Shown here in pieces: positions 45,869 to 60,816 of a DNA stretch of 64,000 bases (positions are counted from its first letter, which is position 1; every line of letters starts with the position of its first letter). Under the pieces are notes generated by a model. It did not search any database, was not told the origin of the DNA, and was given only the letters and a program-made list of their open reading frames with translations. A program made the position numbers and the translations under genes. This DNA comes from Asanoa ishikariensis (GTDB lineage: Bacteria > Actinomycetota > Actinomycetes > Mycobacteriales > Micromonosporaceae). The DNA lies in the NCBI RefSeq assembly GCF_900107455.1, contig NZ_FNQB01000001.1:2914001-2978000 (forward strand), read 5' to 3'.

Positions 45869-47035
45869 ATGCCTACGGAAACCGAGGTGGCGGTAACGCC
45901 GCCCAAGACGTCGAGCGTGCCCAAGACCAAGGCGCAGAGCCTGCGGTCGGGCGATGTCGCCGACTTCCCGGCCCTCACGGGGCTCGAGGAGGAGTGGCGG
46001 TTCACGCCGCTGAAGCGGATGCGCGGTCTCGCGACCGGCACCCCGGCGGCGGAGACCACCCTGCGCTACGAGCACGACGGCCTGCCGGCCGGCGTGACCG
46101 TGTCGGAACTGGCCAAGGGCGACGAGCGGATCGGCCGCGTGCTGGTCCCGTTCGACCGGGTCAGCGCGCTGGGCTACGGCGGCGCCGCCGGCGCGACGCT
46201 GATCGCGGTCGCGCCCGAGGCCGAGCCGGCCGAGCCGGCGACGGTCCGGGTGATCGGCGGCGGCGCGGGTGTCGCGTACGCGCACACCGTGGTCGAGGTG
46301 GGCCGCTTCGCCAAGGCGACGCTGGTCGTCGAGCAGGTCGGTTCGACCACGCTCGCCGACAACGTCGAGGTCGACGTCGCCGACGGGGCCCAGCTCACGC
46401 TGATCACCGTGGCCGACTGGGCGTCCGACGCGGTGCAGGCCCAGCACATCAAGTTCCGGCTCGGGCGGGACGCCCGGGTCACCCATGTGCAGGTCAGCCT
46501 CGGCGGCGACCTGATCCGCCAGTTCACCAGCGTGGAATACGCGGGTCGCGGCGGCGACGCGGAGCTCTACGGGCTCTACTTCGCCGACGGTGACCAGCAC
46601 CTGGAGCACCGCCAGTTGGTCGACCACAGCATCCCGGACTGCCGCAGCTACGTCGGCTACCGCGGCGCGCTCCAGGGCGACGGCGCGCACACCGTGTGGG
46701 TCGGCGACGTGCTGATCCAGACGGCGGCGACCGGCACCGACACGTACGAGATCAACCGCAACCTGGTGCTCAGCGACGGCGCCCGGGCCGACTCCGTCCC
46801 GAACCTGGAGATCGAGACCGGCGAGATCGTCGGTGCCGGACACGCCAGCGCGACCGGTCGGTTCGACGACGAGCAGCTCTTCTACCTGATGGCCCGGGGC
46901 ATCCCCGAGCACGAGGCGCGCAGGCTGGTCGTCCGCGGCTTCTTCGCCGAGCTGCTCCAGAAGATCCCGGTCGAGTCGCTCCGCGACCGCCTCGGCGACG
47001 CCATCGAGGCCCGCTTGGCGAAGGGCGACCAGTGA
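45869..47035 (+). CDS. sufD: SufD Fe-S assembly protein
   Basis: The protein has 388 residues. Its beta-helix C-terminal half parallels SufB: HRQLVDHSIPDCRSYVGYRGALQGDGAHTVWVGDVLIQ, TYEINRNLVLSDGARADSVPNLEIETGEIVGAGHASATGRFDDEQLFYLMARGI, including the functional His in GHASATG. It forms the SufBC2D complex. The ATG directly abuts the sufB stop, and it overlaps the next gene by 4 bp. Confidence 0.95.
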   Translation: MPTETEVAVTPPKTSSVPKTKAQSLRSGDVADFPALTGLEEEWRFTPLKRMRGLATGTPAAETTLRYEHDGLPAGVTVSELAKGDERIGRVLVPFDRVSALGYGGAAGATLIAVAPEAEPAEPATVRVIGGGAGVAYAHTVVEVGRFAKATLVVEQVGSTTLADNVEVDVADGAQLTLITVADWASDAVQAQHIKFRLGRDARVTHVQVSLGGDLIRQFTSVEYAGRGGDAELYGLYFADGDQHLEHRQLVDHSIPDCRSYVGYRGALQGDGAHTVWVGDVLIQTAATGTDTYEINRNLVLSDGARADSVPNLEIETGEIVGAGHASATGRFDDEQLFYLMARGIPEHEARRLVVRGFFAELLQKIPVESLRDRLGDAIEARLAKGDQ

Positions 47036-47367
47036 GCTTCATCCGCCTGTGCTCCGTCGAAGACGTGCCGAAGGGCACGGCGATCAAGGCCGTCACCGAC
47101 GACCTCGAGCTCGCCGTCGTCCACGGTGAGGACGACAACTTCTACGCCGTCTACGACGAGTGCTCGCACGCCGCCGTCGCCCTCTCCGAGGGCGAGGTCG
47201 ACGGGCGCACGCTGGAGTGCTGGCTGCACGGGTCGCGTTTCGACCTGCGCACCGGCGAGCCGACCGGGCTGCCGGCGACCGAACCTGTTCCCGTCTATCC
47301 AGTCGAAGTCCGTGACGGCGAGGTCTACGTCTCCCTCACGCCGAGCAATGGAGTTATGCCCGCATGA
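47032..47367 (+). CDS. Rieske-type ferredoxin (non-heme oxygenase ferredoxin-like) in the suf operon
   Basis: The GTG at 47032 overlaps the sufD stop and gives 111 residues. The Rieske motifs are ECSHAAVALSEG (Cys-x-His) and ECWLHGSRFD (Cys-x2-His), giving two Cys and two His ligands, without the disulfide Cys pair of bc1-type proteins. It is a small soluble electron carrier similar to dioxygenase ferredoxins. Its fixed place between sufD and sufC in actinobacteria suggests that it supplies electrons for cluster assembly, but this is inference. Confidence 0.9.
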   Translation: MSFIRLCSVEDVPKGTAIKAVTDDLELAVVHGEDDNFYAVYDECSHAAVALSEGEVDGRTLECWLHGSRFDLRTGEPTGLPATEPVPVYPVEVRDGEVYVSLTPSNGVMPA

Positions 47368-48137
47368 GCAACCTGGAGATCCGCGGCCTGAAGGTCTCGG
47401 TCAAGCTGCCCGACGGCCAGCTCAAGCCGATCCTGGCGGGCGTCGACCTCACGGTTCGCGCCGGGGAGACCCACGCGATCATGGGCCCCAACGGCTCGGG
47501 CAAGTCGACGCTGGCCTACTCGATCGCCGGCCACCCGAAGTACCAGATCACCGGCGGCTCGGTGACGCTGGACGGCGCCGACGTGCTGTCGATGACCGTC
47601 GACGAGCGTGCCCGCGCCGGCCTGTTCCTCGCGATGCAGTACCCGGTCGAGGTCCCCGGCGTCTCGGTGGCCAACTTCCTGCGCACCGCGAAGACCGCCA
47701 TCGACGGCGAGGCGCCCAAGCTGCGCACCTGGGCCGGCGAGCTGCGCGGCGCGATGGAGCGGCTGCAGATGGACCCGGCGTTCGCCCAGCGCAACGTCAA
47801 CGAGGGCTTCTCCGGCGGTGAGAAGAAGCGGCACGAGATCGTCCAGCTCGAACTGCTCAAGCCGAAGATCGCGATCCTCGACGAGACCGACTCCGGCCTC
47901 GACATCGACGCGCTGCGCGTGGTCAGCGAGGGCGTCAACCGGATCGGCGCGACCGGCGAGACCGGCCTGCTGCTGATCACCCACTACACCCGCATCCTGC
48001 GCTACATCACCCCCGACTACGTGCACGTCTTCGCCCGGGGCCGGATCGTCGAAGAGGGCGGCCCGGAGCTGGCGGAGAAGCTCGAAGCCGAGGGTTACGA
48101 GCGCTACCTGGCGGAAACCGGTCCGGCCACGGCCTGA
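47364..48137 (+). CDS. sufC: SufC ATPase
   Basis: The protein has 257 residues. The ABC ATPase motifs are complete: Walker A GPNGSGKSTLAYSI, signature NEGFSGGEKKRHEIVQL, Walker B IAILDETDSGLDIDAL and the switch ITHYTRIL. It is a soluble ABC protein that drives conformational change in SufBCD. It overlaps the Rieske gene by 4 bp. Confidence 0.96.
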   Translation: MSNLEIRGLKVSVKLPDGQLKPILAGVDLTVRAGETHAIMGPNGSGKSTLAYSIAGHPKYQITGGSVTLDGADVLSMTVDERARAGLFLAMQYPVEVPGVSVANFLRTAKTAIDGEAPKLRTWAGELRGAMERLQMDPAFAQRNVNEGFSGGEKKRHEIVQLELLKPKIAILDETDSGLDIDALRVVSEGVNRIGATGETGLLLITHYTRILRYITPDYVHVFARGRIVEEGGPELAEKLEAEGYERYLAETGPATA

Positions 48138-48162
48138 TCGACGCACGAAGGGCTGCCCAGTC

Positions 48163-49440
48163 ATGACGTCTCTCGCGATCCCGTCGACGTTCGACGTCGC
48201 CGCGCTGCGCGCCGACTTCCCGATCCTCGGTCGGGAGGTCAACGGCCACCCGCTGGTCTATCTGGACAGCGCCAACACGTCCCAGAAACCTCGCCAGGTG
48301 CTCGATGTCATGCGGACGCACCACGAGCGGCACAACGGCAACGTGTCCCGCTCGGTGCACACGCTGGGCACCGAGGCGACGCTCGCCTACGAGGGCGCGC
48401 GCGAGAAGGTGGCCGCGTTCATCAACGCGCCGGCCGCGTCCGAGGTGGTGTTCGGCAAGAACTCCACCGAGGCGATCAACCTGCTCGCGTACGCCTTCTC
48501 GAACGCCTCGGCGACCGCGGACAGTGATCCCCGGTTCCGCCTCGGCCCCGGCGACGAAGTGGTGATCTCCGAGATGGAGCATCACTCCAACATCGTCCCG
48601 TGGCAGCTTCTGTGCGAGCGCACCGGCGCGACTCTGCGCTGGTTCCGGGTCACCGACGACGGCCGGCTCGACGAGTCGGAGCTCGACGACCTGGTCAACG
48701 AGCGCACCAAGCTGGTCTCGATCGTGCACATGTCCAACATCCTGGGCACGATCAACGACCCGGCCAGGATCGTCGCGCGGGCGCACGAGGTCGGCGCGCT
48801 GGTGCTGCTCGACGGCTCGCAGTCGGTGCCGCACTTCCCGGTCGACGTGCAGGCGCTCGGCGTCGACTTCATCGCGTTCACCGGGCACAAAATGCTCGGG
48901 CCGACCGGCATCGGCGTGCTCTGGGGCCGGGCCGGCCTGCTCGACGCGATGCCGCCGGTGCTCGGTGGCGGGTCGATGATCGAGACCGTGACGATGGAGA
49001 AGTCGACGTTCGCGCCGGCTCCGGCCAGGTTCGAGGCCGGCACGCCGCCGATCGTCGAGGCGGTCGGGCTGGGCGCGGCGATCGACTATCTCAACGACAT
49101 CGGCATGGCCGCGGTGCAGGCCCACGAGCACGAGATCACCGCGTACGCCCTGGAGGCGCTCGCCACGGTGCCGACACTGCGGATCTTCGGGCCCACCACC
49201 CCCGAGGGGCGTGGCGGCACGATCTCGTTCGCGCTGGAGGGCATCCACCCGCACGACGTCGGCCAGGTGCTCGACGACGAGGGTGTGGAGGTGCGGGTCG
49301 GCCACCACTGCGCGCGGCCGGTCTGCGTGCGCTACGGAGTGCCCGCGACCACCCGCGCGTCGTTCTACGTCTACACGACGACCGAGGAGGTCGACGCGCT
49401 CGTGCGGGGCCTCGATCGGGTGCGAAAGGTGTTCGGCTGA
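48163..49440 (+). CDS. sufS: SufS cysteine desulfurase
   Basis: This is a 425-residue PLP enzyme. PLP-binding elements include the Lys in IAFTGHKMLGPTGIGVLWG and the His stretch EMEHHSNIVPWQ. The catalytic Cys is in VRVGHHCARPVCVRYGV. It releases sulfur from cysteine as persulfide, passed on to SufU. It overlaps sufU by one base (TGATG). Confidence 0.95.
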   Translation: MTSLAIPSTFDVAALRADFPILGREVNGHPLVYLDSANTSQKPRQVLDVMRTHHERHNGNVSRSVHTLGTEATLAYEGAREKVAAFINAPAASEVVFGKNSTEAINLLAYAFSNASATADSDPRFRLGPGDEVVISEMEHHSNIVPWQLLCERTGATLRWFRVTDDGRLDESELDDLVNERTKLVSIVHMSNILGTINDPARIVARAHEVGALVLLDGSQSVPHFPVDVQALGVDFIAFTGHKMLGPTGIGVLWGRAGLLDAMPPVLGGGSMIETVTMEKSTFAPAPARFEAGTPPIVEAVGLGAAIDYLNDIGMAAVQAHEHEITAYALEALATVPTLRIFGPTTPEGRGGTISFALEGIHPHDVGQVLDDEGVEVRVGHHCARPVCVRYGVPATTRASFYVYTTTEEVDALVRGLDRVRKVFG

Positions 49441-49898
49441 TGCAGTTCGACCAGCTATACCAGGAGATCATCCTGGAGCACTACAAGCGGCCGCACGGTC
49501 GCGGGCTCCGGGAGCCGTTCGGCGGCGAGGCGCACCACGTCAACCCGACCTGCGGTGACGAGGTGACGATCCGGGTCGCCGTGGCCGGCGACAAGCTGAC
49601 GGACGTCTCGTACGAGGGGATGGGCTGCTCGATCAGCCAGGCCTCGGCGAGTGTCCTGCACGACCTGCTGGCCACGCTGCCGGTCGACGAGGCACTCAAG
49701 GTGCACGACGCGTTCGTCGAGCTGATGCAGGGCCGCGGCCAGGTCGAGCCGGACGAGGAATTGTTGGGTGACGGCGTGGCGTTCTCCGGAGTGGCACGTT
49801 ATCCGGCGCGCGTGAAGTGCGCGCTGCTGCCCTGGATGGCGTTCAAGGACGCGGCGGTTCGCGCCGGCGTCACAGTGGGACCCGAGGTGAAGGCATGA
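49440..49898 (+). CDS. sufU: SufU zinc-dependent sulfurtransferase
   Basis: The protein has 152 residues (MQFDQLYQEIILEHYKRPHG). The three conserved Cys and the Asp ligand are in NPTCGDEV, GMGCSISQAS and ARVKCALLPW. It is longer than IscU between the second and third Cys, the SufU hallmark. It accepts persulfide from SufS by zinc-ligand swapping. It overlaps sufT by 4 bp. Confidence 0.94.
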   Translation: MQFDQLYQEIILEHYKRPHGRGLREPFGGEAHHVNPTCGDEVTIRVAVAGDKLTDVSYEGMGCSISQASASVLHDLLATLPVDEALKVHDAFVELMQGRGQVEPDEELLGDGVAFSGVARYPARVKCALLPWMAFKDAAVRAGVTVGPEVKA

Positions 49899-50245
49899 GT
49901 GAAGAGACTGTGACCCCTGCTAAGGCGTCGGTCGACGTGGTCGAAGAGGCGATGAAGGACGTCGTCGACCCGGAGCTCGGGATCAACGTCGTCGACCTCG
50001 GCCTGGTGTACGGCGTACACATCGACGACGAGAACGTCGCCACCCTGGACATGACGCTGACGTCGGCGGCCTGCCCGCTGACCGACGTGATCGAGGACCA
50101 GACCCGGGCGGCCCTGACCACCGGCCCCGGCGGCGGCGTGGTCAGCGACTTCCGGATCAACTGGGTCTGGCTGCCGCCGTGGGGCCCAGACAAGATCACC
50201 GACGAGGGCCGCGACCAGCTCCGGTCGCTCGGCTTCAACGTCTGA
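49895..50245 (+). CDS. sufT: SufT-like DUF59 metal-sulfur cluster assembly factor
   Basis: The ATG at 49895 gives 116 residues. The DUF59 signature reads VEEAMKDVVDPELGINVVDLGLVYGV, with the conserved Cys in LTSAACPLTDVIEDQ. The C-terminus has INWVWLPPWGPDKITDEGRDQLRSLGF. It helps mature Fe-S proteins and closes the suf operon. It is convergent with the membrane protein gene at 50247, with one base between. Confidence 0.93.
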   Translation: MSEETVTPAKASVDVVEEAMKDVVDPELGINVVDLGLVYGVHIDDENVATLDMTLTSAACPLTDVIEDQTRAALTTGPGGGVVSDFRINWVWLPPWGPDKITDEGRDQLRSLGFNV

Positions 50246-50246
50246 G

Positions 50247-50969
50247 TCAACCGCTCACCGCACCCTCCCGCGCCGCTGGCACGGGAGGGTTCGCGTAGGT
50301 GGCGTCGAACGTCCCGTCGACGATCTGCGCGGCGTTCGGCACACGGGCCAACCGCCCGAAGCCGAGCACGTACGCCCGCATGCGCGACTGGAGCTTGGCC
50401 AGGTCGGCACGGCAGGCGGCGGCCTCCGGCCAGCCGGTGTCGCCGTCATGGGTCGCTTCCCAGGCCGCGAGCAGCGGGTGCCACCGCGTCAGGAACGGGC
50501 GTAGCTCGCTGTTGAGCATCGCGATGGCCAGGTGCTCGACGGTCGGGTCGCTGCCGGTGCGCCGCGAGGGCTGGGTCTCCTTCAGGATCTCCCGGGTCAG
50601 CTCGAACACCCCGTGGATCGAGCTGAGGGCCTCGCGCAGGTGACCGACGCCGGGATCGAGCCGCTGCGTGGCGACCCGCGTGACGGTCTCGACGAAGAGC
50701 TTCCACGCCACCTGCTCGCTCTCGCGGGTGACGGTGAAGTTCAGCTCGCTGAACTGCGGCACGGTGATCTTGACGTCGGTGAGCCGGACCGTCTGGTTGA
50801 GACTGTGCACGACCAGCGCGGCCACGAGCCCGGCGAACCCTCCGGCGACGACGAACAACCCGGCGCCCGTCAATTGGCTGCCCAGGTAGACGCCGAGGCC
50901 GCCCAACGCACCACCGAGGGCGCCCAGCAGCACCCGGGCCCAGCGCGTTTGCAGCCAACCAGCGATCAC
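50247..50969 (-). CDS. membrane-anchored hypothetical protein, last gene of the MoxR operon
   Basis: The protein has 240 residues. Two hydrophobic segments lie near the N-terminus (about 12-33 and 37-55: VLLGALGGALGGLGVYLG and GLFVVAGGFAGLVAALVV). A soluble mostly helical domain of about 180 residues follows (NFTVTRESEQVAWKLFVETVTRVATQRLDPGVGHL, SIHGVFELTREILKETQPSRR). I recognise no enzymatic motif. The 4-bp overlap with the TgpA-like gene shows that it belongs to the moxR-DUF58-tgpA operon and may be a membrane partner of that complex. Confidence 0.7.
   Translation of the reverse strand: MIAGWLQTRWARVLLGALGGALGGLGVYLGSQLTGAGLFVVAGGFAGLVAALVVHSLNQTVRLTDVKITVPQFSELNFTVTRESEQVAWKLFVETVTRVATQRLDPGVGHLREALSSIHGVFELTREILKETQPSRRTGSDPTVEHLAIAMLNSELRPFLTRWHPLLAAWEATHDGDTGWPEAAACRADLAKLQSRMRAYVLGFGRLARVPNAAQIVDGTFDATYANPPVPAAREGAVSG
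50263..50289. terminator. possible bidirectional hairpin at the convergent sufT / membrane-protein gene ends
   Basis: CCCTCCCG (50263-50270) pairs with CGGGAGGG (50282-50289) across an 11-base loop, 18 bases after the sufT stop. It lies inside the final codons of the minus-strand gene. No T-run follows, so efficiency is uncertain. Confidence 0.4.
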
Positions 50970-53041
50970 GTGGCCTCCCTCAGGTCCGCTCTATTCCATC
51001 GTGGACGCCGACCCGACGCAACGGCCCGTACGGTCCACAGCCGCGCTGGTGCGAGCCGTCGGACCGACCGGCGCACCGGATGGTCGAGCCTTTCGACCCG
51101 GGGTCTGATCCGGTCGGCGAGGACCCAGGCCGCCTCGGCGATGTCGGCGCCGACCGGCTCGCCCGCGAATCCGGCGTGGTCGGCGAGCACGGCGAGCGCC
51201 GCCACGTCCGCCGCCGCTCCCGGGCAGACCTTGGCGGCGTGGTCGGCCAACTGGCCGTTGGTCCGCACCGCGATCCCCGGCGTGCGGCCGCGCAGCGCTT
51301 CCAGCACGTCCCACCAGGCGTTCACGGCCCGGGTCCGCGGGTCCGCCGCCCGTCGTCGGCTGCGGCGGCGCAGCGGTGGCGCCGCCAGCACGGTGACCAG
51401 GTAGGCGGCCACCGCCAGCAGGACGACCGCCAACAGGTACGAGGCGGGCAGGCCGGCTCCGGTCGCCCCGCCGGTCTCGCCGCCACCGGTGTCGTCGGGC
51501 GAGGACGCGGCGCTGGCCGACGGCCGCGCGTCCGGTGCGGCGGTGGCGCTCGGTGTCGGCGCGGGGCTCGGCCGGACGGACTTCGTCACCGCCGGGGCCG
51601 GTGCCGCAGCCGCGCCAGGCTGGGGCGCCGGCTCGTAGCCCCGCCAGCCCTCGGGCAGGAGCACCTCCGGCCAGACCCGGACGTCGCGCCCGCGGACCAC
51701 CAGCGCCGGGCCTTCGCGAGTGCCGGGCGCGAAGCCCACGACGATCCGGCTCGGCCGGCCCAGCCGGCGGGCGACCAGCGCGAAGGCGACGGCATACTGC
51801 TCGGCCCCACCCACCGCCGTGCCCGACAGCAGCCGGTCGACGTGGCCGTACGAGTGCCCGCCCGGCGCGGCGGGGTCGGTGCGGCCGTGGCGGCGCAGCC
51901 GCGTCTCGAGCGCGTCGAGCGGCGCGGACTCACCGGTCACCTCGCCCGCCAGCGCCACGACGGACGCCGGTACCGGCGCCGGCAGCGCCGTCTCCCCAGG
52001 GCTGACCCGATCCGACGCCCGACCGGAGGACACCGCGTAGTGCCGTCCTGGTCGGAGCCGTTCGGTGGAGAGCAACGTCCCGGTTTCCTCGTCGACCGCG
52101 TCGACGCCGTCGTGCAGCCGGACGGGCACGTCCGCGGCCGGCAGGAAGTAGCCGTCCAACTCGTCGATCACGAAGTTCTGGCGCACCGGCACGCCGGTCA
52201 CGGTCCCGGCACCGGTGCCCAGTCCCGCCGGGACGAACCGCGGTCGTGACATCGTCCAGTCCTGGCCGTCGAACCGGTCAAGGACCGCCAGCCGCCATGG
52301 CCGAGGACTGCTCGTCTCCACCGTGAAGAGGCGCGCGTCGGGTCTGGCACGGTAGCCCGGCACCCGGTCGAGCGGGTTCAGGTCGGCCCGGACGCTGATC
52401 GGCACCGCGAGCCGGTCGCGCGGGTCGTACGGGTCGCCGCCGAGCCGTTGGCCGGCCGTGATCCCGGCACCGGCGACGACCGCGACCACGGCGGCGACCG
52501 CCGGCACGACACGCGGCGTGCGCCGCCGGCGGACGACAGCCAGCGTCGCGATCGCGGCGACGAGCCCGAGCACCGGCGCGACCGCCGTCCGGGTGACGAC
52601 GGGCGCGACGAAAGCGGACGCGGCGACCAGGGTCAGCACGGCCGGCACGCCGGGTGCCAGGGCGGAGCGGGTGCGCAGCGCGAGGTGGGTGCCGGCGGCC
52701 GCTGTCAGCCACGTCGCGGCCGCCACGACGAGCACGAGATCGGGCCGGGGCTGTGCGGGCAGGGTGATGTTCAACAGTCGGCGCGGCCCGTCGACCAACG
52801 CGTCGGCCAGGGCGGCCGGCGCCTGACCGTGGACGAGCGCCAGCAGCAGCGGCGCCACGACGTGGGCCACCGCCAGCAGGCGGGGTCCGAATCGGGCCGC
52901 CACGGTCAGCAGGACGACCGGCACGACGCTGGCCAGGACGACCGGGGCGACCAGGACCGGCCAGTCGAAGCCTGCCGCGAACGCCCAGCCCGCGGACGCC
53001 GAGGCGACGGCGACAGCCACGGCGCTGACGGACCGGTTCAC
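50966..53041 (-). CDS. TgpA-like membrane protein with degenerate transglutaminase domain
   Basis: The GTG at 53041 overlaps the DUF58 stop by 4 bp and gives 691 residues. The first about 200 residues contain several membrane segments (DUF3488/TgpA N-domain). An extracytoplasmic transglutaminase-like domain and a Pro/Ala-rich stretch follow, then a membrane segment (YLLAVVLLAVAAYLVTVLAAP) and a cytoplasmic C-tail (DUF4129-like). The catalytic triad is not conserved: the nucleophile site reads VGGAEQYAVAFALVARRLG (Ala for Cys, codon about 51803-51805), the His site reads RVWPEVLLPEGW (Arg for His), and the Asp site reads YEPAP. It is therefore probably a non-catalytic member. Confidence 0.82.
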   Translation of the reverse strand: MNRSVSAVAVAVASASAGWAFAAGFDWPVLVAPVVLASVVPVVLLTVAARFGPRLLAVAHVVAPLLLALVHGQAPAALADALVDGPRRLLNITLPAQPRPDLVLVVAAATWLTAAAGTHLALRTRSALAPGVPAVLTLVAASAFVAPVVTRTAVAPVLGLVAAIATLAVVRRRRTPRVVPAVAAVVAVVAGAGITAGQRLGGDPYDPRDRLAVPISVRADLNPLDRVPGYRARPDARLFTVETSSPRPWRLAVLDRFDGQDWTMSRPRFVPAGLGTGAGTVTGVPVRQNFVIDELDGYFLPAADVPVRLHDGVDAVDEETGTLLSTERLRPGRHYAVSSGRASDRVSPGETALPAPVPASVVALAGEVTGESAPLDALETRLRRHGRTDPAAPGGHSYGHVDRLLSGTAVGGAEQYAVAFALVARRLGRPSRIVVGFAPGTREGPALVVRGRDVRVWPEVLLPEGWRGYEPAPQPGAAAAPAPAVTKSVRPSPAPTPSATAAPDARPSASAASSPDDTGGGETGGATGAGLPASYLLAVVLLAVAAYLVTVLAAPPLRRRSRRRAADPRTRAVNAWWDVLEALRGRTPGIAVRTNGQLADHAAKVCPGAAADVAALAVLADHAGFAGEPVGADIAEAAWVLADRIRPRVERLDHPVRRSVRRLAPARLWTVRAVASGRRPRWNRADLREAT

Positions 53042-54087
53042 CGGATGCTTCCGGCCGCGACCGGCCATCCGGCCGCGGCCTCCTCCAGCGACGCGGGGGC
53101 CAACTCCGCTCCGAACCGCACGACGAGCGGCCGGCGTCCGGTCAGCCCGGCGGCGACCAGCGCGTCGCCGACCGGCCCGTGGCCGGTGATCAACGTGACC
53201 GGCCCGGCCGAGGCGCGACCACGGGCCGGGGTCCGCTCCGGAGCGCCCGGCGCGACGTCGGTGAGGGTGTCGAGCAGGCGCAGGCGGTCAGCACCGGTGG
53301 CCGCACCGGTCAGCCGCAGGCCCGACGTGGTGGACAGGTTGGTCGGCAGGCCGGCGTCCACGGCTGCCAGGAGGATCGACGTGGCCAGGTCGACCGCGTC
53401 CTCGAAGGCGGCGCCGGTGCGAAAGGCGTCGGGGCGGGTGTCGAGCACGACCGTCACCGTCGCGACCTCGACTTCGGCGTGCTCGCGCACCAGCAGCACG
53501 GCGAGGTCGGAGCGCGCGCTGGCGAGCCAGTGGATGCGGCGCGGGTCGTCGCCGATGACGTACTCGCGGAGGCCGACCATCAGCGAGCCGTCGTGGGACC
53601 GTCGCCGGCCGGACCGCGATCCGGTCGCCGACCCGCGGCACCAGGAGACGTCGACCGGGACGATCCGCGGGCGGACCCGGACGGTGGTCCCGGTGCCGAC
53701 GGCACGCCGCCGCTCGTACAGGCCGAAGGGGTCGCCGTCGACCGTTTCGAGCGGGCCGATGGCGACCGTCCCGCGCTGGTGCACGGGCACGACCAGGTCA
53801 CCGGTGAACGGATGACGGGCGTCGCCGACCGGCAGCAGCGCGTCCTGAAGCGGCTTGCGGGTCGGCTCGACAACGATGTGGACGGTGCCGCCACGGTGGA
53901 GCTCGGCGGGCTCAACCCGGACCCACGCGGCCACCTGTGCCCGGCCGAGCAGCGTGAGTGCACCGGCGGCCAGCGCGAACAGGCCGGCCGCCGCGATCGC
54001 CAGCGATCCGGGGTAGCGCAGCGGCACGGCCAACCCGGCCAGCGCCAGCGTGCCGACCGCGACCTGCCGGCCGACCGGGGTCAGCAC
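53038..54087 (-). CDS. DUF58 domain protein
   Basis: The protein has 349 residues with GTG start. Two hydrophobic segments at the N-terminus (about 8-50) are followed by the DUF58 motif REYVIGDDPRRIHWLASARSDLAVLLVREH (about residues 175-205), preceding a von Willebrand A-like half (VTVVLDTRPDAFRTGAAFEDAVDLATSIL). DUF58 proteins are nearly always encoded with MoxR ATPases and are thought to be their substrates or partners. It overlaps moxR by 7 bp and the TgpA-like gene by 4 bp. Confidence 0.88.
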   Translation of the reverse strand: MLTPVGRQVAVGTLALAGLAVPLRYPGSLAIAAAGLFALAAGALTLLGRAQVAAWVRVEPAELHRGGTVHIVVEPTRKPLQDALLPVGDARHPFTGDLVVPVHQRGTVAIGPLETVDGDPFGLYERRRAVGTGTTVRVRPRIVPVDVSWCRGSATGSRSGRRRSHDGSLMVGLREYVIGDDPRRIHWLASARSDLAVLLVREHAEVEVATVTVVLDTRPDAFRTGAAFEDAVDLATSILLAAVDAGLPTNLSTTSGLRLTGAATGADRLRLLDTLTDVAPGAPERTPARGRASAGPVTLITGHGPVGDALVAAGLTGRRPLVVRFGAELAPASLEEAAAGWPVAAGSIR

Positions 54088-55028
54088 GGGATGCCGGCGC
54101 GGGCCGTTATCCGGGGAACCGTGATGGTGCCCAGCACGCGGCGCACGAGGTCCTCGACGTCGACCCCGGCCACCTCCGCGCGGGGGGTGCGCACCAGCCG
54201 GTGGGCCAGCACGGGCACGGCCAGGTCGTACACGTCGTCGGCCACGACGTAGCCCCGCCCGAATACCGCCGCGCGCACCCGGGCCAACCGCACCAGCGCC
54301 TTGCTGGCTCGCGGGCTGGCGCCGAGCTCCAACTCCGGGAGCCGGCGCGTGGCCGCGACAATCTCCACGACGTACGCGAGCAGGGCGTCGTCGACGTAGA
54401 CATCGCGCGCGAAGGCCGCGACGGCCTCGATCGTGGCGGGATCAGCGGCGGGCCGGGCCGGCGCGGCCGCGGTGTCGCTCCGCAACATCGTGAGCTCGTC
54501 CTGCGGCGCCGGGTAGCCCAGGCTCAGCCGGACCGCGAAACGGTCGAGCTGGGCCTCCGGAAGCGGGAACGTGCCGGCCATCTCGACCGGGTTCTGCGTG
54601 GCGATGACCATGAAGGGCCGCGGCACGTCCCGGTCCCGGCCGTCGACCGTCACCTGGCGTTCCTCCATGACCTGGAGCAGCGCCGACTGGGTCTTCGGCG
54701 AAGCACGGTTCACCTCGTCGCACAGGACGACGTTGGCGAAGATGGGACCCGGGCGGAACTCCTCGCCGGCGTCGCGGCGGTAGACCATCGTGCCGAGGAT
54801 GTCGGTGGGCAGCAGGTCGGGGGTGAACTGGATCCGGTTCATCGTGGCGCCGAACGCCTCCGCCAGCGCCCGGGCGAGCGACGTCTTGCCCACGCCTGGC
54901 ACGTCCTCGATGAGCAGGTGTCCCTGCGCGAGCAGGCAGAGGACGGCGGCCTGGACGGCGGAGGTCTTGCCGACGATGGTGCACTCGACGCGGGCGACGA
55001 GGGCGGCGAACAGCTCAGGCAGGGACAT
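54081..55028 (-). CDS. MoxR-family AAA+ ATPase
   Basis: The ATG at 55028 gives 315 residues (MSLPELFAALVARVECTIVG). Walker A is IEDVPGVGKTSLARALAEAFG, Walker B VVLCDEVNRASPKTQSALLQVMEE, sensor 1 VIATQNPVEMAGTFPLPEAQLDRF, with an arginine-finger region after it. MoxR ATPases act as chaperones that activate VWA-containing or membrane complexes. It is the first gene of the operon running to 50247 and is divergent from the secreted beta-helix gene. Confidence 0.93.
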   Translation of the reverse strand: MSLPELFAALVARVECTIVGKTSAVQAAVLCLLAQGHLLIEDVPGVGKTSLARALAEAFGATMNRIQFTPDLLPTDILGTMVYRRDAGEEFRPGPIFANVVLCDEVNRASPKTQSALLQVMEERQVTVDGRDRDVPRPFMVIATQNPVEMAGTFPLPEAQLDRFAVRLSLGYPAPQDELTMLRSDTAAAPARPAADPATIEAVAAFARDVYVDDALLAYVVEIVAATRRLPELELGASPRASKALVRLARVRAAVFGRGYVVADDVYDLAVPVLAHRLVRTPRAEVAGVDVEDLVRRVLGTITVPRITARAGIPC

Positions 55029-55214
55029 GGGGCTCTCTGGCGGAGTGCGGGCGGTGGCCCGGCAAGGATGGCGCGCGTTGGCCTCGCGCGGGGGTGGGAC
55101 GGCAGGAACCAACCGTTCGACCTAACCCGGGCGGTCGCATAGGGCACCTGAACGGCGTACCCGCTGGTCCCGTCGGTTCCGTGTCGTCAGACCGCCGGTC
55201 TACGGTCACCCGTC

Positions 55215-57275
55215 GTGCGCAAGCTTCGGGCCCGGGTGTGCGCGGCCGCCGTGATGGTCGCCGTCGTCGCCGTGCCACTCGCGGGACGGGCGGACCCGTC
55301 GACCGAGCTTCCGCACGTCTCGGCCTCGGCCTGGCTGCCCAGCATCGGCACCGGAACGCTGGTGCGGACGAACGCCACGCGCGGCGAACCGGACGCCGAG
55401 CTGAAGCTGCCCGCCGACGCGCTCGTCGTGCAGGGCGCGGGACACGTCGTCCTCTTCGACCGCGCCGCGGGCACGGCGACCCCGGTCGACACCGCTCTCC
55501 TGCGGTACGGCGCGGCCGTCCCGTTCGGCGAGCCGCTCGGCGAGGCGGTGGTCGACGGGCGGGGGACGATCTGGTTCGCCGTCCTGGGTCGGGGCGCCGT
55601 CGTGCCGATGCGCGCCGGCGTGGCGGGGCCGGCGGTCACCGTCACCCGCGGCGGCGACACCCTCCCGCTGGTCGTCGTCGCCGGCCGGGCGATGGCCGTG
55701 GACGCGACCACGCAAAGCCTCGTCGGTCTGGACGGCGCGGCCGCCGCACCGCTTCCGGCCGAACTGGCCGGCAGACCGTTCCACGCCGGGGGATCCACCG
55801 ACCAGCGGGTGGCTGCCTTCGTGACCGGGTCGCGCCTGGTGGTGTCCTGGTTGGACACCCGGACGACCGAGGTGGTCGACCTGCCGGCGCGCCGACCTGG
55901 CAGGCCGGTGGTCGCCGGTCACCGGGTGATCGTTCCCGACGGCGGCCGCCTCCTGGTGCACGACCTCGACACCGGGGCGACGGAGGCGGTCACCGTGGCC
56001 GACCGACCGGCCACCCTCGACGTCTTCGCGCAGGACGGCCTGGTGTGGGCGAACGCGCCGGACGGCCCCGAGGCGATGGTGTGGGTCGACGACGCCTGGC
56101 GGCGGATCCGCAAGTACGGCACACGATCCGCCTCGACGAAGGCACCGCGCCCCCGGCCGACGCCGTCGACCACTGTGCGACCCGAGCCGTCACCGTCGGA
56201 ACGCGAGACGCCGGGTCCGTCGGTCGGCGGCCCGCAGGCCGGCCCGAGCCCGGGCGGGGGAGGGCCGCGTCCGTCCCCGGCGGCCGGCGGCCTCCGCTGC
56301 GGCGGCGTGTTGACCGCGGACGGTGCGCTCGACCGCGACCTGCGGTGCTCGGGCACCGCCGGGATCACGATCGCGGCCGACGGCGTCACCCTGGACCTAC
56401 GGGGGCACACGCTCAGCTTCGCCGGGCCGCCGCCGGCCGGTGCCGAACCGATCGGCGTGGCCGCCCGTGCGGTGCGGGACGTCCAGATCCGCAACGGCGT
56501 CGTGACGGGGTTCCTCCGGCAGGTGGAGCTGCGCGACTCACGCGACGTGACACTGACCGACGTGCGCCTGAAGGGCAACCGGGGCCTGCGTGCGGTCGCC
56601 GTCTCCGGGCTCCGGCTCAGCGGGGTCAGCATCGGGCCGGAGGGCAGGAACAGCCATGCGTTGACCGTCACGGAGTCGACGGTCGACGTCCAGGAGTCCT
56701 CGATCGTCGGCGACAACAGCGGCTGCTTCCTGAGCACCTGCCGTTTCGTGGGCGGCAACCTCAGCGTGGACCTGTTCGAGGCGACCGGGCCGTTGACCAT
56801 GCGCGGCACCACGGTCTGGTGCAAGGTCTGTCACGTCCACGACGGCGGCACCGCGGTCATCCGCGACGGCGAGATCCGCCGGCTGAACATGCCCGGCGGG
56901 CTGCCCCGGATCGTCGGCAACCGGATCACCGGGCCGCTTCGCCTGGGTCTGAACCCGGACTCGCCGTACCCGAACGGTGGTCCGGCGGTCGAGCGCAACG
57001 ACATCGTCGGCTCCGCGCTCGTGGTCGACGCGCAGTCAGCAGGCCGGATGAGGGGCATGCGGATCGTCGGCAACACCGTCTCGGGGGCGCCCGGCCAGAA
57101 CTTCTACTCGTCGGGGGAGGGGATCCGGATCGACGTGCCCGAGGGCAGCGACATCCTGGTCGCGGGCAATACGGTCCGGAACAGCCGGGGGTACGGCATC
57201 TCGGCGCCGCAGGGCGTCCTGGACGGTGGCGGCAACACCTCGGACACCGGCTGCGTGGGCGTGCGATGCGGCTGA
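55215..57275 (+). CDS. secreted protein: propeller-like N-domain, Pro-rich linker, beta-helix C-domain
   Basis: The protein has 686 residues with GTG start and no clear ribosome site. A signal peptide is seen at about 1-26 (VMVAVVAVPLAGRA, cleavage before DPS). Residues about 30-300 have short repeating beta-strand blocks (GTIWFAVLGRGAVVPM, AMAVDATTQSLVGLDG, LLVHDLDTGATEAVTV, DGLVWANAPDGPEAMVWV) typical of a beta-propeller. Residues 303-358 are a Pro/Ser/Thr linker. Residues 362-686 look like a right-handed parallel beta-helix (ITIAADGVTLDLRGHTLSFAG, VQIRNGVVTGF, RIVGNRITGPLRLG, ILVAGNTVRNSRGYGIS) with several Cys. No polysaccharide-lyase catalytic set is evident. As I recall, the N-domain resembles that of Ig/FN3-type proteins beside actinobacterial MoxR-DUF58-TgpA operons. 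It overlaps the next gene by 10 bp. Confidence 0.75.
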   Translation: MRKLRARVCAAAVMVAVVAVPLAGRADPSTELPHVSASAWLPSIGTGTLVRTNATRGEPDAELKLPADALVVQGAGHVVLFDRAAGTATPVDTALLRYGAAVPFGEPLGEAVVDGRGTIWFAVLGRGAVVPMRAGVAGPAVTVTRGGDTLPLVVVAGRAMAVDATTQSLVGLDGAAAAPLPAELAGRPFHAGGSTDQRVAAFVTGSRLVVSWLDTRTTEVVDLPARRPGRPVVAGHRVIVPDGGRLLVHDLDTGATEAVTVADRPATLDVFAQDGLVWANAPDGPEAMVWVDDAWRRIRKYGTRSASTKAPRPRPTPSTTVRPEPSPSERETPGPSVGGPQAGPSPGGGGPRPSPAAGGLRCGGVLTADGALDRDLRCSGTAGITIAADGVTLDLRGHTLSFAGPPPAGAEPIGVAARAVRDVQIRNGVVTGFLRQVELRDSRDVTLTDVRLKGNRGLRAVAVSGLRLSGVSIGPEGRNSHALTVTESTVDVQESSIVGDNSGCFLSTCRFVGGNLSVDLFEATGPLTMRGTTVWCKVCHVHDGGTAVIRDGEIRRLNMPGGLPRIVGNRITGPLRLGLNPDSPYPNGGPAVERNDIVGSALVVDAQSAGRMRGMRIVGNTVSGAPGQNFYSSGEGIRIDVPEGSDILVAGNTVRNSRGYGISAPQGVLDGGGNTSDTGCVGVRCG

Positions 57276-60016
57276 GCGGCACTCCGCGCGACGACGCGTT
57301 CCTCTCCTACAGCCACCGCGAGGACAAGCAGGTCGTCACGCTCCTCCAGTCGGCGCTGCACCGGTTCGCCCAACCCTGGTGGCGCCGGCGGGTCCGGCGC
57401 ATCTTCCGGGACGTCACCGACCTCGGTGCACACCCGGAGCTCCTGCCGGCCCTCCACAAGCGACTCGCCAACGCGGATTGGCTGATCGTCTGCGCGTCAC
57501 CCGCCGCCGCTGCCTCGTACTGGGTGGGTGAGGAGATCACGTGGTGGCGGACGCACCGCTCGACCGGGCGCATCCTGCTGGTCCGGTGTTCCGGGGAGCT
57601 CGCCTGGGACCGCCGGGCGCGGGACTTCGACTGGGAGCGCAGCGACGCCGTTCCCCGGGCTTTGGCCGGAGCCTTCCAGCACGAGCCGCGGTGGGTCGAC
57701 CTCTCCGACCTCGTCGGGCGCCGGATCGGGGCGCGGGACCCGCGGCTGCGGGACGCGGCGGCCGATCTGCTGTCCACCATCCACGACCGGCCGAAGTCGG
57801 ACCTCGTCGGAGAGGACAGGCGCCGTCATCGGCAGGCGATGCGCGCGGTGGCGGCCGCGGCCACGGTGTTCGTGCTGCTGCTCGGCGTGCTGACCCTGGC
57901 CGAGCTTCGCTCCGCGCGGCGGGCGGAGGACACCCGCGCCGGCAAGCTGGCCGAGGCGGCGCTGGCCCTGGTCGACCAGGACGTCACGCTGGCCAACCTC
58001 CTGGCCGTCGAGGCCTACCGCCTGCGTCCCGAGCCGGCTCAGCGCGCCGCCCTGCTCCAGGTCAACGCGGCCAGCCCCCAACTCGTGGCGACCCACCACA
58101 CCGCCAGCGAGATCACCGCCGTGACCTCGTCCGCGACGGCGATGGCCGCCGGCACGGACTCGGGCGTCGTGCACGTCTGGCCGATCGGGGCCGGCACACC
58201 CGCTCGCGTCGCGACCGGACTCGGCCGGTTGGACCAGGTGGCGCTCAGCCGTGATGCCTCGACCGTCGCGGCGGCTGCCGGGACCGAGGTGGTGGTCTGG
58301 CGTGCGGACTGGGCCGCACCGCGCCGGCTCCCGCTCGACGGCGCCGACCATCTCGCGTCGGTGGCGGTGTCGCCGTCCGGCGATCGCACGGTGGTGAGCT
58401 GGGCCCGGCCGCAAACGCCCCAACACGCTCCCGGGATCGGCGTGGTGGACGTGGTCGACACGGCGACCGGCCGAGTGCTCCTTCGGCGGGAGCATCCGGA
58501 GTGGCTCCTCGACGTGACGATGCCCGACGACCGCACGGTCCGCGGCGTCCGCTGGGAGGCTTCGGATCGCGTCGCCCTCGACCTGGACCTGCGCACGCTC
58601 GACCCGAACGGGCACCGCGGGGTTCAACCGATGAGGGCCAGGACGTTGTTCCGTCCCTCGGCCGACGGCTCCATGTGGGTCGCCAACGGCTTCGGCCACT
58701 TCACCGTGCTGCCGGCGTTCGGCGGCGGCGAGGATCGTGGAACGCGTGCGAAACCGCCCAGCCGCCAGGCGGGCACGTTCACCGTCACGAACGACGGCCA
58801 TCGCATCGCCACCATCCACTCAGGACATGTCTACGTGTTGGCTGCGCGCGACAGTCCGGGAGAATACCCCGACACGACGGAGCTGTCGGGCTTCCGGAAC
58901 ACCAGCCTCGTGCGCTTCTTCGACGCGCACCGGTTGGTCTCCGCGGGCGGCCGCACGGTGGCGTTCTGGGATCTCCGGCAGGTCTCGCGCCTCGCGGCCG
59001 TCACCGGAACCTCGCTGCGCGACCTGGCACGGTTCAAACAGAGCCCCGTGGTGCTGCCCACCGGGGACGGCCGTTTCGCGGTGGTCGCCGACGAGCTCGG
59101 CCGCAGCGCGTACGTCGTCGACCTGTCCGACGGCCACCAACGGGACGCGGCTCCGAAGGACGTCGGCCGGCCACTCTGGACGGACCCGGCCGCCGAACGG
59201 GTGCTCACCGCCACGGACAAGGCAGTTCTGGAGTGGCTGCCACGACATGGACGGCTCCGCACCCTCGACTGGCTCCCACCGGGGCAGGCGGAGCCGCCGC
59301 AGGCAATCGCGGCGCGTCCGTCGGACTCGAGCTTCGTCGCCGTCTACCGGGACGGTGCCGTGTGGGCGCACGAGGGTGGCGACGGCCGGCCGCTGCGGTC
59401 GATCAGGCCGGCCGCCACCGGTTCACCGCCGAGTGCGGCGGTCAGCGCAGACGGGTCCCGCGTCGGTCTTGTCGGGGTCGGGTCGCCCGCCGTGACCGTC
59501 GACACGGACAGCGGTGAGGTGCGGGAGCTGGACCTCCACGAGGCGGTCGGGGTGGCGCCGGCCGGGCCGGACGGTCTGATCTTCACCGGCGTGGACGGCA
59601 GCGTCGAGAGTGTCGGCAGCGACGGCCGGGCGACGGTGGCCGGTCCCGCCGAGCCGGGTGGCACCTGGGAGCTCAGCGAGGACGGAACGGTCGCCGCGCG
59701 GCTCCGCGCCGACGGCCGGATCCTGGTGCGCGACCTGCCGTCCGGTGAGCGCCTCGGCGACCTGGCGATGCCCATGCCCGCCTCGGGAATCGCGATGGAC
59801 CTGAGCCCGTACAACTCGGTCCGGATGCGTTTTCGGCCCGGCCACCGCGACCTCCTGACGGTCGCCTCCGGTGCGTCGTTGACCAGGTGGGACCTGGACG
59901 TCGCGAGCTGGCGACGCATCGCCTGCGAGCTCGCCGGACGGGACCTCGGCGCGGACGAGTGGCGTCGCGCGGCCGGACCGGACGGCGTGCCGGAGGACCT
60001 GCGTTGCGCGCGTTAG
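57266..60016 (+). CDS. TIR domain - transmembrane - beta-propeller protein
   Basis: The ATG at 57266, inside the end of the preceding gene, gives 916 residues. The TIR domain (about 8-150) starts DDAFLSYSHREDKQVVTLLQ and continues RRIFRDVTDL, ADWLIVCASPAAAASYWVGEEITWW; WVGEEI matches the SARM1-type WVHKEI site, so the catalytic Glu (Glu90) is kept. Residues 191-213 form one membrane helix (AVAAAATVFVLLLGVLTLAEL). After a helical stretch (LAEAALALVDQDVTLANLLAVEAYRLRPEP, about 228-258) the last 640 residues are short WD40/propeller-like blades. TIR enzymes of this kind cleave NAD+ or make signalling nucleotides. A defence or signalling role is inferred. The gene is tail-to-tail with tetR, stops overlapping. 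Confidence 0.85.
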   Translation: MRLSGTPRDDAFLSYSHREDKQVVTLLQSALHRFAQPWWRRRVRRIFRDVTDLGAHPELLPALHKRLANADWLIVCASPAAAASYWVGEEITWWRTHRSTGRILLVRCSGELAWDRRARDFDWERSDAVPRALAGAFQHEPRWVDLSDLVGRRIGARDPRLRDAAADLLSTIHDRPKSDLVGEDRRRHRQAMRAVAAAATVFVLLLGVLTLAELRSARRAEDTRAGKLAEAALALVDQDVTLANLLAVEAYRLRPEPAQRAALLQVNAASPQLVATHHTASEITAVTSSATAMAAGTDSGVVHVWPIGAGTPARVATGLGRLDQVALSRDASTVAAAAGTEVVVWRADWAAPRRLPLDGADHLASVAVSPSGDRTVVSWARPQTPQHAPGIGVVDVVDTATGRVLLRREHPEWLLDVTMPDDRTVRGVRWEASDRVALDLDLRTLDPNGHRGVQPMRARTLFRPSADGSMWVANGFGHFTVLPAFGGGEDRGTRAKPPSRQAGTFTVTNDGHRIATIHSGHVYVLAARDSPGEYPDTTELSGFRNTSLVRFFDAHRLVSAGGRTVAFWDLRQVSRLAAVTGTSLRDLARFKQSPVVLPTGDGRFAVVADELGRSAYVVDLSDGHQRDAAPKDVGRPLWTDPAAERVLTATDKAVLEWLPRHGRLRTLDWLPPGQAEPPQAIAARPSDSSFVAVYRDGAVWAHEGGDGRPLRSIRPAATGSPPSAAVSADGSRVGLVGVGSPAVTVDTDSGEVRELDLHEAVGVAPAGPDGLIFTGVDGSVESVGSDGRATVAGPAEPGGTWELSEDGTVAARLRADGRILVRDLPSGERLGDLAMPMPASGIAMDLSPYNSVRMRFRPGHRDLLTVASGASLTRWDLDVASWRRIACELAGRDLGADEWRRAAGPDGVPEDLRCAR

Positions 60017-60738
60017 ACGTACGTCTCCAGACTGCGGATGAGCATGTCCAGGCCGAAAGCGAAGCGTTCGTCACTGTCGGCCTGCATCAGCGCGTCGACG
60101 TGGGTCGTCAACGACGGGAACTGGTCCCGCGGCAGCGTCTTGTAGTACTCGTGGATCTCCGACAGGCGCGCGTAGAACCGCTCGCTCGCCTCGGGTGAGT
60201 CGAGCTTGTAGCGCGAGACGATCAGCGCGCCCTCGTACGAGTCGGCCGCGATGTAGAGGGACAGCCGGTCGGTGGCCAGCGCGGCCACCTTCGGCGGCAC
60301 CCCGCCGGCAAGCATGATCGCGAGCATGCACTCACCGACCCGCAGGGCGTGGTAGCCCACCGGGATGTTGCCGAGGCTCAGCCGCGCGATGTCGCGGTGC
60401 TGGGCGTGTGCCCGCTGGATCTCGAACGCCAGCTCCCGGATCTGGTCCTGCCAGCGCGCCGGGTCCGGCTCCGGCAGCCGTACCTCGCTGAGCACCCGCT
60501 CTCGGATCAGGTCGAGCAGCTCCTCCTTGTTGGCGACGTGCGCGTAGAGCGACGCCGCGCCCGTGTCGAGCTCGTCGGCGACCCGCCGCATGCTCACGGC
60601 GTCGAGCCCGTCGGCGTCGAGCACCTTCAGCGCCGCGTCGACGATCTTGTCGGCGGTCAGCGGCTCGCGGCTCGGCGTCGTGGCTCGGCGGGGCTTCTTC
60701 CAGGGAGGCGGTGGGAGGAGCTCGGTCACGTCGAACAT
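60013..60738 (-). CDS. TetR-family repressor with C-terminal TetR-class-C-like domain
   Basis: The ATG at 60738 gives 241 residues; the frame runs to 60795, but that would put the operators inside the coding region. The N-terminal HTH is PLTADKIVDAALKVLDADGLDAVSMRRVADELDTGAASLYAHVANKEELLDL. The C-terminal ligand-binding helices follow (WQDQIRELAFEIQRAHAQHRDIARLSLGNIP). It is divergent from an MFS exporter and separated by an array of palindromes, so it almost certainly represses that exporter and itself until a drug or metabolite binds. Confidence 0.93.
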   Translation of the reverse strand: MFDVTELLPPPPWKKPRRATTPSREPLTADKIVDAALKVLDADGLDAVSMRRVADELDTGAASLYAHVANKEELLDLIRERVLSEVRLPEPDPARWQDQIRELAFEIQRAHAQHRDIARLSLGNIPVGYHALRVGECMLAIMLAGGVPPKVAALATDRLSLYIAADSYEGALIVSRYKLDSPEASERFYARLSEIHEYYKTLPRDQFPSLTTHVDALMQADSDERFAFGLDMLIRSLETYV

Positions 60739-60743
60739 CGTAC

Positions 60744-60800
60744 TTGACGCGAACAGTGTTCGAGCGTAGAACAGTGTTCGTCCGTGTTCGAACACCGTTC
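60744..60800. promoter_or_regulatory. tetR/MFS operator array and MFS promoter
   Basis: Three GAAC-N3-GTTC palindromes occur: GAACAGTGTTC at 60751-60761 and 60769-60779, and GAACACCGTTC at 60790-60800; the last overlaps GTGTTCGAACAC (60784-60795). A promoter TTGACG (60744-60749), a 17-base spacer and TAGAAC (60767-60772) runs toward the MFS gene and is covered by the first two sites. Binding would therefore block it. Confidence 0.75.
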
Positions 60801-60816
60801 GTCAGGAGTCGCGCCG

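Follow-up and report, generated by a model that had tools for sequence, protein, structure and literature searches.

Sequence comparisons lend good support to a partnership between the TIR protein encoded in the window (the whole 64,000-nucleotide stretch of Asanoa ishikariensis DNA analysed herein) and nb240, a protein family that appears to be the recurrent partner of this TIR. TIR enzymes are widespread immune domains, and the receiver of their output defines each system; in Thoeris, a TIR-made messenger activates a partner, which in the ThsA type has SLOG, Macro or Sir2 architectures. Members of the nb240 family recur in actinobacteria, a cyanobacterium, rhizobia, vibrios and a viral contig, and are without a model in the four family libraries searched, so that the family may give access to TIR immunity that has so far gone unrecognised. 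The window copy of nb240 is the fourth gene of an operon that faces the TIR gene, and it was absent from the original prediction. The locus as a whole seems to be assembled from two conserved halves, a PFNA-type exported unit and a TIR/nb240 unit. It comprises the following features.

50247..50969, minus strand: nb240, 240 aa, last gene of the MoxR operon, GTG start
50966..53068, minus strand: TgpA-type membrane transglutaminase-like protein (Pfam TgpA_N 1.7e-14, Transglut_core 3.6e-12)
53038..54087, minus strand: DUF58 protein (Pfam DUF58 9e-6, above cut-off)
54081..55028, minus strand: MoxR-type AAA+ ATPase (Pfam AAA_3 1e-58; ORF open to 55112, likely ATG at 55028)
55029..55214, no strand: divergent intergenic region, 186 bp, between the MoxR ATG and the exported-protein gene
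55215..57275, plus strand: exported protein, 686 aa (predicted signal peptide, propeller-type part at about 30-300, Pro-rich linker, putative beta-helix at about 358-686)
55302..56114, plus strand: segment of the exported protein with homology to MoxR-linked FN3 proteins, in their N-terminal part (5e-11, best of 7; 1.1e-22)
56286..57272, plus strand: predicted right-handed beta-helix, which replaces FN3 repeats (Pfam Beta_helix below cut-off, residues 413-519)
57266..60016, plus strand: TIR-TM-WD40-type propeller protein (P0002), 916 aa (Pfam, hydropathy, AlphaFold model)
57290..57715, plus strand: TIR domain of P0002, residues 9-150 (Pfam, model; Glu90 at 57533-57535)
57845..57904, plus strand: single transmembrane stretch of P0002, residues 194-213 (191-213 by hydropathy; model)
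58082..59893, plus strand: beta-propeller region of P0002, residues 273-876 (model, PDB comparison)
59924..60007, plus strand: C-terminal segment of P0002, Cys887 to Cys914 (both Cys in 38/38 aligned sequences; putative disulfide)

As had been predicted, the two large plus-strand ORFs (55215-57275 and 57266-60016) overlap by 10 bp, and the 186-bp gap to the divergent operon holds with the likely MoxR ATG at 55028. The facing genes were also correctly named as MoxR, DUF58 and TgpA, their Pfam matches (AAA_3, DUF58, and TgpA_N with Transglut_core) all being above cut-off. The third-position GC signal is strong in both plus-strand ORFs (0.92 and 0.89, respectively), and ATG 57266 is consistent with two homologues, where the TIR motif also begins about 10 residues in or later. 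The GTG start of nb240 overlaps the TgpA stop (GTGA), with a GGGAGG stretch ahead of it. No sigma-70 consensus promoter or terminator-like site was found in 50200-60100, nor any tRNA in 35000-64000. A SUF iron-sulfur-like operon was recognised by eye at 44435-50245; because its genes end 1 bp from nb240, the 9.8-kb locus is flanked by this operon and by a TetR/MFS pair.

P0002 matched TIR_2 of Pfam with 29.9 bits (cut-off 28) and ThsB_TIR also above cut-off; its match to ThsB of PADLOC reached an E value of 0.0056 only. The TIR domain with a glutamate in the motif WVGEEI, as originally described, is well founded, and this residue, Glu90, is present in 38/38 aligned sequences, that is, P0002 and 37 full-length homologues hand-picked from the best 80 of 94 TIR loci (see below). 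The single membrane helix followed by a propeller was likewise recovered. Simple hydropathy gave one hydrophobic stretch only, and an AlphaFold model (38 sequences, mean pLDDT 83.7) contains a TIR-like part, a long helix that includes the membrane stretch, and beta-strands at 273-876; PDB comparisons of this model were filled by propellers, and no WD40 match of P0002 was above the Pfam cut-off. A C-terminal pair, Cys887 and Cys914, is also found in 38/38 aligned sequences. Such a conserved pair closing a propeller with few Cys suggests a disulfide, which in turn suggests that the propeller faces outside and the TIR domain inside. Charges flanking the membrane helix are weakly positive-inside. 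The nearest full-length relatives of P0002 are 31-32% identical to it. TIR-TM-WD40 proteins, mostly from actinobacteria and called 'TIR domain-containing protein' in annotated records, have the same domain order as P0002; the window copy differs in having the gene for an exported beta-helix protein ahead of it and a MoxR operon opposite. The window genome itself has a paralogous TIR-TM-WD40 gene (G000:C8; L010 8910-11687), which shares 33% identity in the matched region and has no nb240 in its vicinity.

Genome contigs were scanned with an alignment of three TIR-TM-WD40 proteins, and the best 80 of 94 matched loci were compared. An nb240 relative stands directly beside the TIR gene, before or after it, in 6 of these best 80 of 94 loci (L048, L051, L071, L075, L097 and L100), and is absent from 74 of them. 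MoxR-type matches occurred in 4 of the best 80 of 94, and only one of these (L052) is a MoxR-DUF58 set close by. In L052 (9992-17040, a Microbacteriaceae MAG), genes for a TIR-TM-WD40 protein, an RyR protein, MoxR and DUF58 are consecutive on one strand, an independent TIR/MoxR-DUF58 neighbourhood.

Because this survey was TIR-seeded, it was repeated from nb240. The plasmid search gave 12 places in 11 records; with three Streptomyces longwoodensis records (one opened) counted as one place, 10 plasmid places remained. A TIR gene lies within 2.5 kb of nb240 at 9 of these 10, or at 6 of 10 by record annotation alone, the gap being explained by an unannotated Rhizobium record and two Calothrix TIRs not annotated as TIR. 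The two genes overlap by 4 bp on the S. cynarae plasmid; at the two Calothrix places the TIR is 1.5 kb away and 15 bp away, respectively; and on the Photobacterium plasmid nb240 is 13 bp upstream of a TIR-NLR gene (PADLOC PDLC03015, E 9e-277). Sinorhizobium, Rhizobium, Mesorhizobium and Vibrio plasmids also have a TIR gene within 2.5 kb, an IS5 transposase gene separates nb240 from the TIR gene in S. longwoodensis, and the Ruegeria place has no TIR. Overlaps or short gaps between nb240 and TIR genes occur in either gene order. The sole nb240 relative among viral contigs lies 11 bp behind a ThsB-type TIR gene, and since this contig has endolysin and head-protein genes, the pair may travel as phage cargo. 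On the viral contig (L142 5357-7753), the ThsB-type TIR and the nb240 core gene are followed by an SNase-membrane gene, and the three may together be a defence cargo.

The nb240 family is also present in one genome of the same order (G019) out of 25 relatives searched, in the form of a TIR-NTPase-nb240 fusion (L127 8079-10590) with two divergent stand-alone nb240 copies beside it. By eye, the fusion is next to a transposase-like gene. Of 89 class genomes searched, including that of the window, the 88 others have no true member of the family; a second match among the 89 was rejected. Taken from nb240, a TIR is thus present at 11/12 places outside the window (9/10 plasmid, 1/1 viral and 1/1 genome), the whole-genome searches being small (26, 21 and 89 genomes).

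As a control, plasmids from S. cynarae, Photobacterium and Sinorhizobium were inspected over three stretches of 50 kb. These stretches hold 140 annotated features and 3 TIR genes, all three in one cluster on the Sinorhizobium plasmid, and 8/140 features lie within 2.5 kb of a TIR gene. With one 14-query TIR set and own-locus queries excluded, a TIR-like ORF was detected in 8/11 nb240 loci versus 0/3 control stretches; the search is not fully sensitive, as it missed the 3 annotated Sinorhizobium TIR genes, and the TIRs of L127 and L133 were detected only with queries from their own locus. These adjacency figures should be read with the relatedness of several sites (three are rhizobial), the small number of controls, and the TIR-richness of Sinorhizobium plasmids in mind. 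In a reciprocal plasmid search with P0002, two of 4 distinct sites adjoin nb240, one (Rhizobium) has an nb240-patatin gene at a distance of about 11 kb, and the Methylorubrum site has no nb240.

A low-confidence model (7 sequences, pLDDT 69.8) gives the nb240 protein two N-terminal membrane helices together with a beta-hairpin and a four-helix bundle. Conservation in the family centres on this bundle, its core, which carries an LRPF.(K/R)WH-type motif. No PDB fold matched the model at E 0.001, and the members scanned had no match at 0.001 in Pfam, PADLOC and PHROGs or at 0.01 in NCBIfam, the patatin part of fusions excepted. At least one strong hydrophobic N-terminal stretch is present in 9/9 nb240 copies from the window and named actinobacteria, and the adjoining TIR proteins carry a membrane stretch (by eye for several). 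Such a stretch is absent from the three G019 copies, one of which is fused to its TIR, and from 5 free-standing proteobacterial or cyanobacterial copies. Stand-alone cores of 157-172 aa, without a membrane or catalytic part, exist next to TIR genes. On Rhizobium, Sinorhizobium and Mesorhizobium plasmids, the core forms one fusion protein with a polytopic patatin-type part (in Sinorhizobium, patatin by eye), and all three plasmids also carry separate TIR genes. The Rhizobium fusion is directly 3' of a TIR-TM-WD40 gene, the TIR of which matches P0002 with E 3e-7. The window's nb240 is thus a small membrane protein undescribed in Pfam, NCBIfam, PADLOC and PHROGs; its relatives are neighbours of this type of enzyme in widely differing bacteria, and this suggests that it is an unrecognised part of bacterial immune signalling.

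The other half of the locus has different relatives. The gene overlapping that of P0002 had been predicted to encode a secreted protein with a signal peptide, a propeller, a Pro-rich linker and a beta-helix. A signal-peptide-like hydrophobic stretch was seen at residues about 6-26 (simple hydropathy, no dedicated predictor), and the propeller-type part was placed at residues about 30-300; the right-handed Beta_helix match of the C-terminal part is weak (E 6.6e-4) and below the Pfam cut-off. Twelve stretches around DUF58 homologues were compared, 10 from relatives and 2 from the window genome. In four (L031, L032, L036 and L037), an 876-918-aa protein is encoded directly upstream of the called MoxR on the same strand, and in two others, L034 (window genome) and L041, a similar protein lies ahead of DUF58, with a gap without a called gene between them. 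The alignment of residues 14-300 of the exported protein reaches 5e-11 in its best stretch with the L031 protein, and 9e-6 with that of L032; the other five of seven MoxR-linked proteins were below threshold as whole sequences, one having a stretch at 3e-6. FN3 domains are present in 5/5 scanned MoxR-linked proteins, at the place of the beta-helix in the window protein, in which Pfam found no FN3 domain. Searched against plasmid records, the exported protein matched three by its N-terminal part only, and all 3/3 have at least one of MoxR, DUF58 and TgpA downstream of the match.

The window DUF58 is the third copy in its genome, and none of the proteins that it matches in 20 relatives is more than 40% identical to it. 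Each of 5 other same-genus genomes carries two DUF58 genes, which are 34-37% identical to the window copy. Judging by these comparisons, the MoxR-DUF58-TgpA set is an extra copy. A PFNA cluster (pkb2, fn3, aaa-atp, duf58, tgm) is described in bifidobacteria (PMC8430577). By sequence, the exported protein belongs with MoxR-DUF58-TgpA, making up a divergent, rearranged PFNA cluster: MoxR, DUF58, TgpA and an exported protein with an N-terminal part matching FN3 proteins are shared, whereas the window unit differs in having no FN3 domain, a divergent orientation and an extra nb240 gene. No pkb2 kinase-like gene was seen by eye among the gene calls at 50-60 kb, only part of the ORFs being scanned. 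The exported protein had no match at E 1e-3 in the gene calls of the best 80 of 94 TIR loci (some short), none in 5 other same-genus genomes, and none in a peptide-pattern scan of genome contigs of limited sensitivity. The beta-helix/TIR/MoxR arrangement is known from one genome, and within these searches the pairing of beta-helix and TIR proteins is not supported as a conserved one, an outcome that the original prediction had named as refuting. The broader suggestion of an immune or signalling role is supported by kinship.

We give a little better than an even chance to the reading that the locus is a composite Thoeris-like immune signalling module, in which an outward propeller triggers the TIR domain and nb240 is the membrane partner of the TIR. 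The gene organisation, the homologies, the recurrent TIR/nb240 adjacency, a single TIR-NTPase-nb240 fusion and the conserved Glu and Cys residues are observed; the topology, NAD+ cleavage, the direction of signalling, the effector role of nb240 and a defence function are what we infer here. The propeller of P0002 would face outward and respond to something happening at the envelope, for instance phage attack or wall damage, and sensing would cluster the cytoplasmic TIR domains, which would then cleave NAD+, as their family and the conserved Glu90 suggest. Anchored by two membrane helices and extending a four-helix bundle into the cytoplasm, nb240 would be the dedicated partner of the TIR; most likely it would receive or relay the TIR output and perturb the membrane, and in relatives it may switch on the fused patatin lipase. 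The exported protein and MoxR-DUF58-TgpA would be a surface unit of a divergent PFNA type that became linked to the TIR unit, one divergent control region being common to both. The simplest common scheme might run from an outside signal to TIR activation, to an NAD-derived product or NAD loss, and to a membrane partner, here nb240; the window thereby suggests a way for a TIR to be driven from outside the cell. Several points weigh against this reading. The window copy of nb240 is encoded on the other strand, 6.3 kb away from where the TIR gene begins, and might be part of the MoxR operon alone; its low-confidence model has no PDB match at E 0.001, and the charge balance of the TIR helix is weakly positive-inside. 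Moreover, nb240 is lacking at 74 of the best 80 of 94 TIR loci and beside the TIR-WD40 paralogue, the Ruegeria place has no TIR, and a transposase gene intervenes in S. longwoodensis.

A regulator or adaptor would also be easier to reconcile with the small stand-alone cores (157-172 aa) than an effector would. In the main rival explanation, which is possible but which we would not favour, nb240 restrains the TIR as an antitoxin-like clamp or adaptor, holding it inactive in place. Overlaps and short gaps in either gene order, as well as the TIR-NTPase fusion in G019, would fit such a contact-acting adaptor. Nonetheless, the fusion of the core to patatin-type proteins on three rhizobial plasmids with separate TIR genes fits a signal-receiving effector better, and the presence of SLATT or RyR genes beside other members of the TIR-TM-WD40 family points to membrane effectors.

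The halves of the locus could also be chance neighbours, an accessory PFNA-like cluster whose last gene happens to be nb240, and a TIR-WD40 gene that was captured beside its exported protein. The beta-helix/TIR pair was in no other genome searched and a MoxR-DUF58 set was near a TIR at L052 only among the best 80 of 94 loci, both of which speak for chance; but nb240 is rare (no true member in the 88 other class genomes) and mostly beside TIR genes, the gene for the beta-helix protein shares 10 bp with the TIR gene, and, given that the 9.1-Mb genome has two P0002-like TIR genes, a distance below 10 kb would arise by chance in roughly 0.4% of cases by our own arithmetic. We consider this explanation unlikely. 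Far less probable still is a MoxR-vWA-beta-propeller ternary conflict system sensu Kaur et al. 2020. MoxR does match bpMoxR above cut-off (5e-9), with a propeller protein and an effector-type domain nearby, but AAA_3 is a far better match (1e-58), no vWA-propeller fusion was found in the six locus proteins scanned, the DUF58 protein has no vWA match, and the propellers are in exported and membrane proteins. The main holders of the propeller subsystem are given in PMC7159879 as bacteroidetes, planctomycetes, verrucomicrobia and proteobacteria.

Compared with known systems, the preferred Thoeris-like module shares with Thoeris (ThsB TIR plus ThsA) a TIR and a partner gene, and several nb240 places, one of them viral, have ThsB-type TIRs; however, nb240 has no SLOG, Macro or Sir2 match in Pfam or PADLOC. 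SLATT/DUF4231 2TM predicted effectors resemble nb240 in having two membrane helices and cytosolic helices and in being neighbours of TIR-TM-WD40 genes, but nb240 matches no SLATT model. A TIR-NLR (PDLC03015) adjoins the Photobacterium nb240, but is of the TIR-NTPase-TPR type, not TIR-TM-WD40, and nb240 has no PADLOC match. A bolder idea, which we rather doubt, is that nb240 is a hitherto undescribed domain that serves as receptor for an NAD-derived messenger made by the TIR. Its outputs would be interchangeable (a 2TM membrane part in actinobacteria, a patatin-type lipase in rhizobia and a TIR-NTPase fusion in the same-order genome), and the window would hold a surface-sensing version connected to an exported adhesin-like protein and a MoxR chaperone; if true, this would be a new class of Thoeris-like immunity.

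Other genes recur beside TIR-TM-WD40 genes. RyR-domain genes lie within 2.5 kb in 9/79 loci (3/9 Pfam-confirmed), including L122 7971-9770, and SLATT_3+SLATT_1 2TM genes in 6/79 (3/6 Pfam-confirmed), including L109 8978-9871 and L043 8860-9846. Since the former are mostly from Promicromonospora and the latter mostly from Lentzea, the loci within each set are not independent. SLATT is predicted to be a nucleotide-responsive pore in PMC7159879, and RyR-domain proteins of phages act on ADPR-type immune signals according to PMC13232231; an RyR gene beside a TIR-TM-WD40 gene is possibly a TIR signal-to-channel pairing. A secreted, partly lipoprotein-like family with the motif VPGEFCG stands beside TIR-TM-WD40 genes in 8/79 loci (for example, L071 12711-13613 and L010 7770-8744); the one member scanned had no Pfam match, and the family may be an outside partner of the TIR propeller. 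Downstream of the locus, at 60750-60803, three tandem palindrome-like copies (GAACAGTGTTCG type) lie between the TetR-like gene and the divergent MFS-like gene, and are likely a TetR operator.
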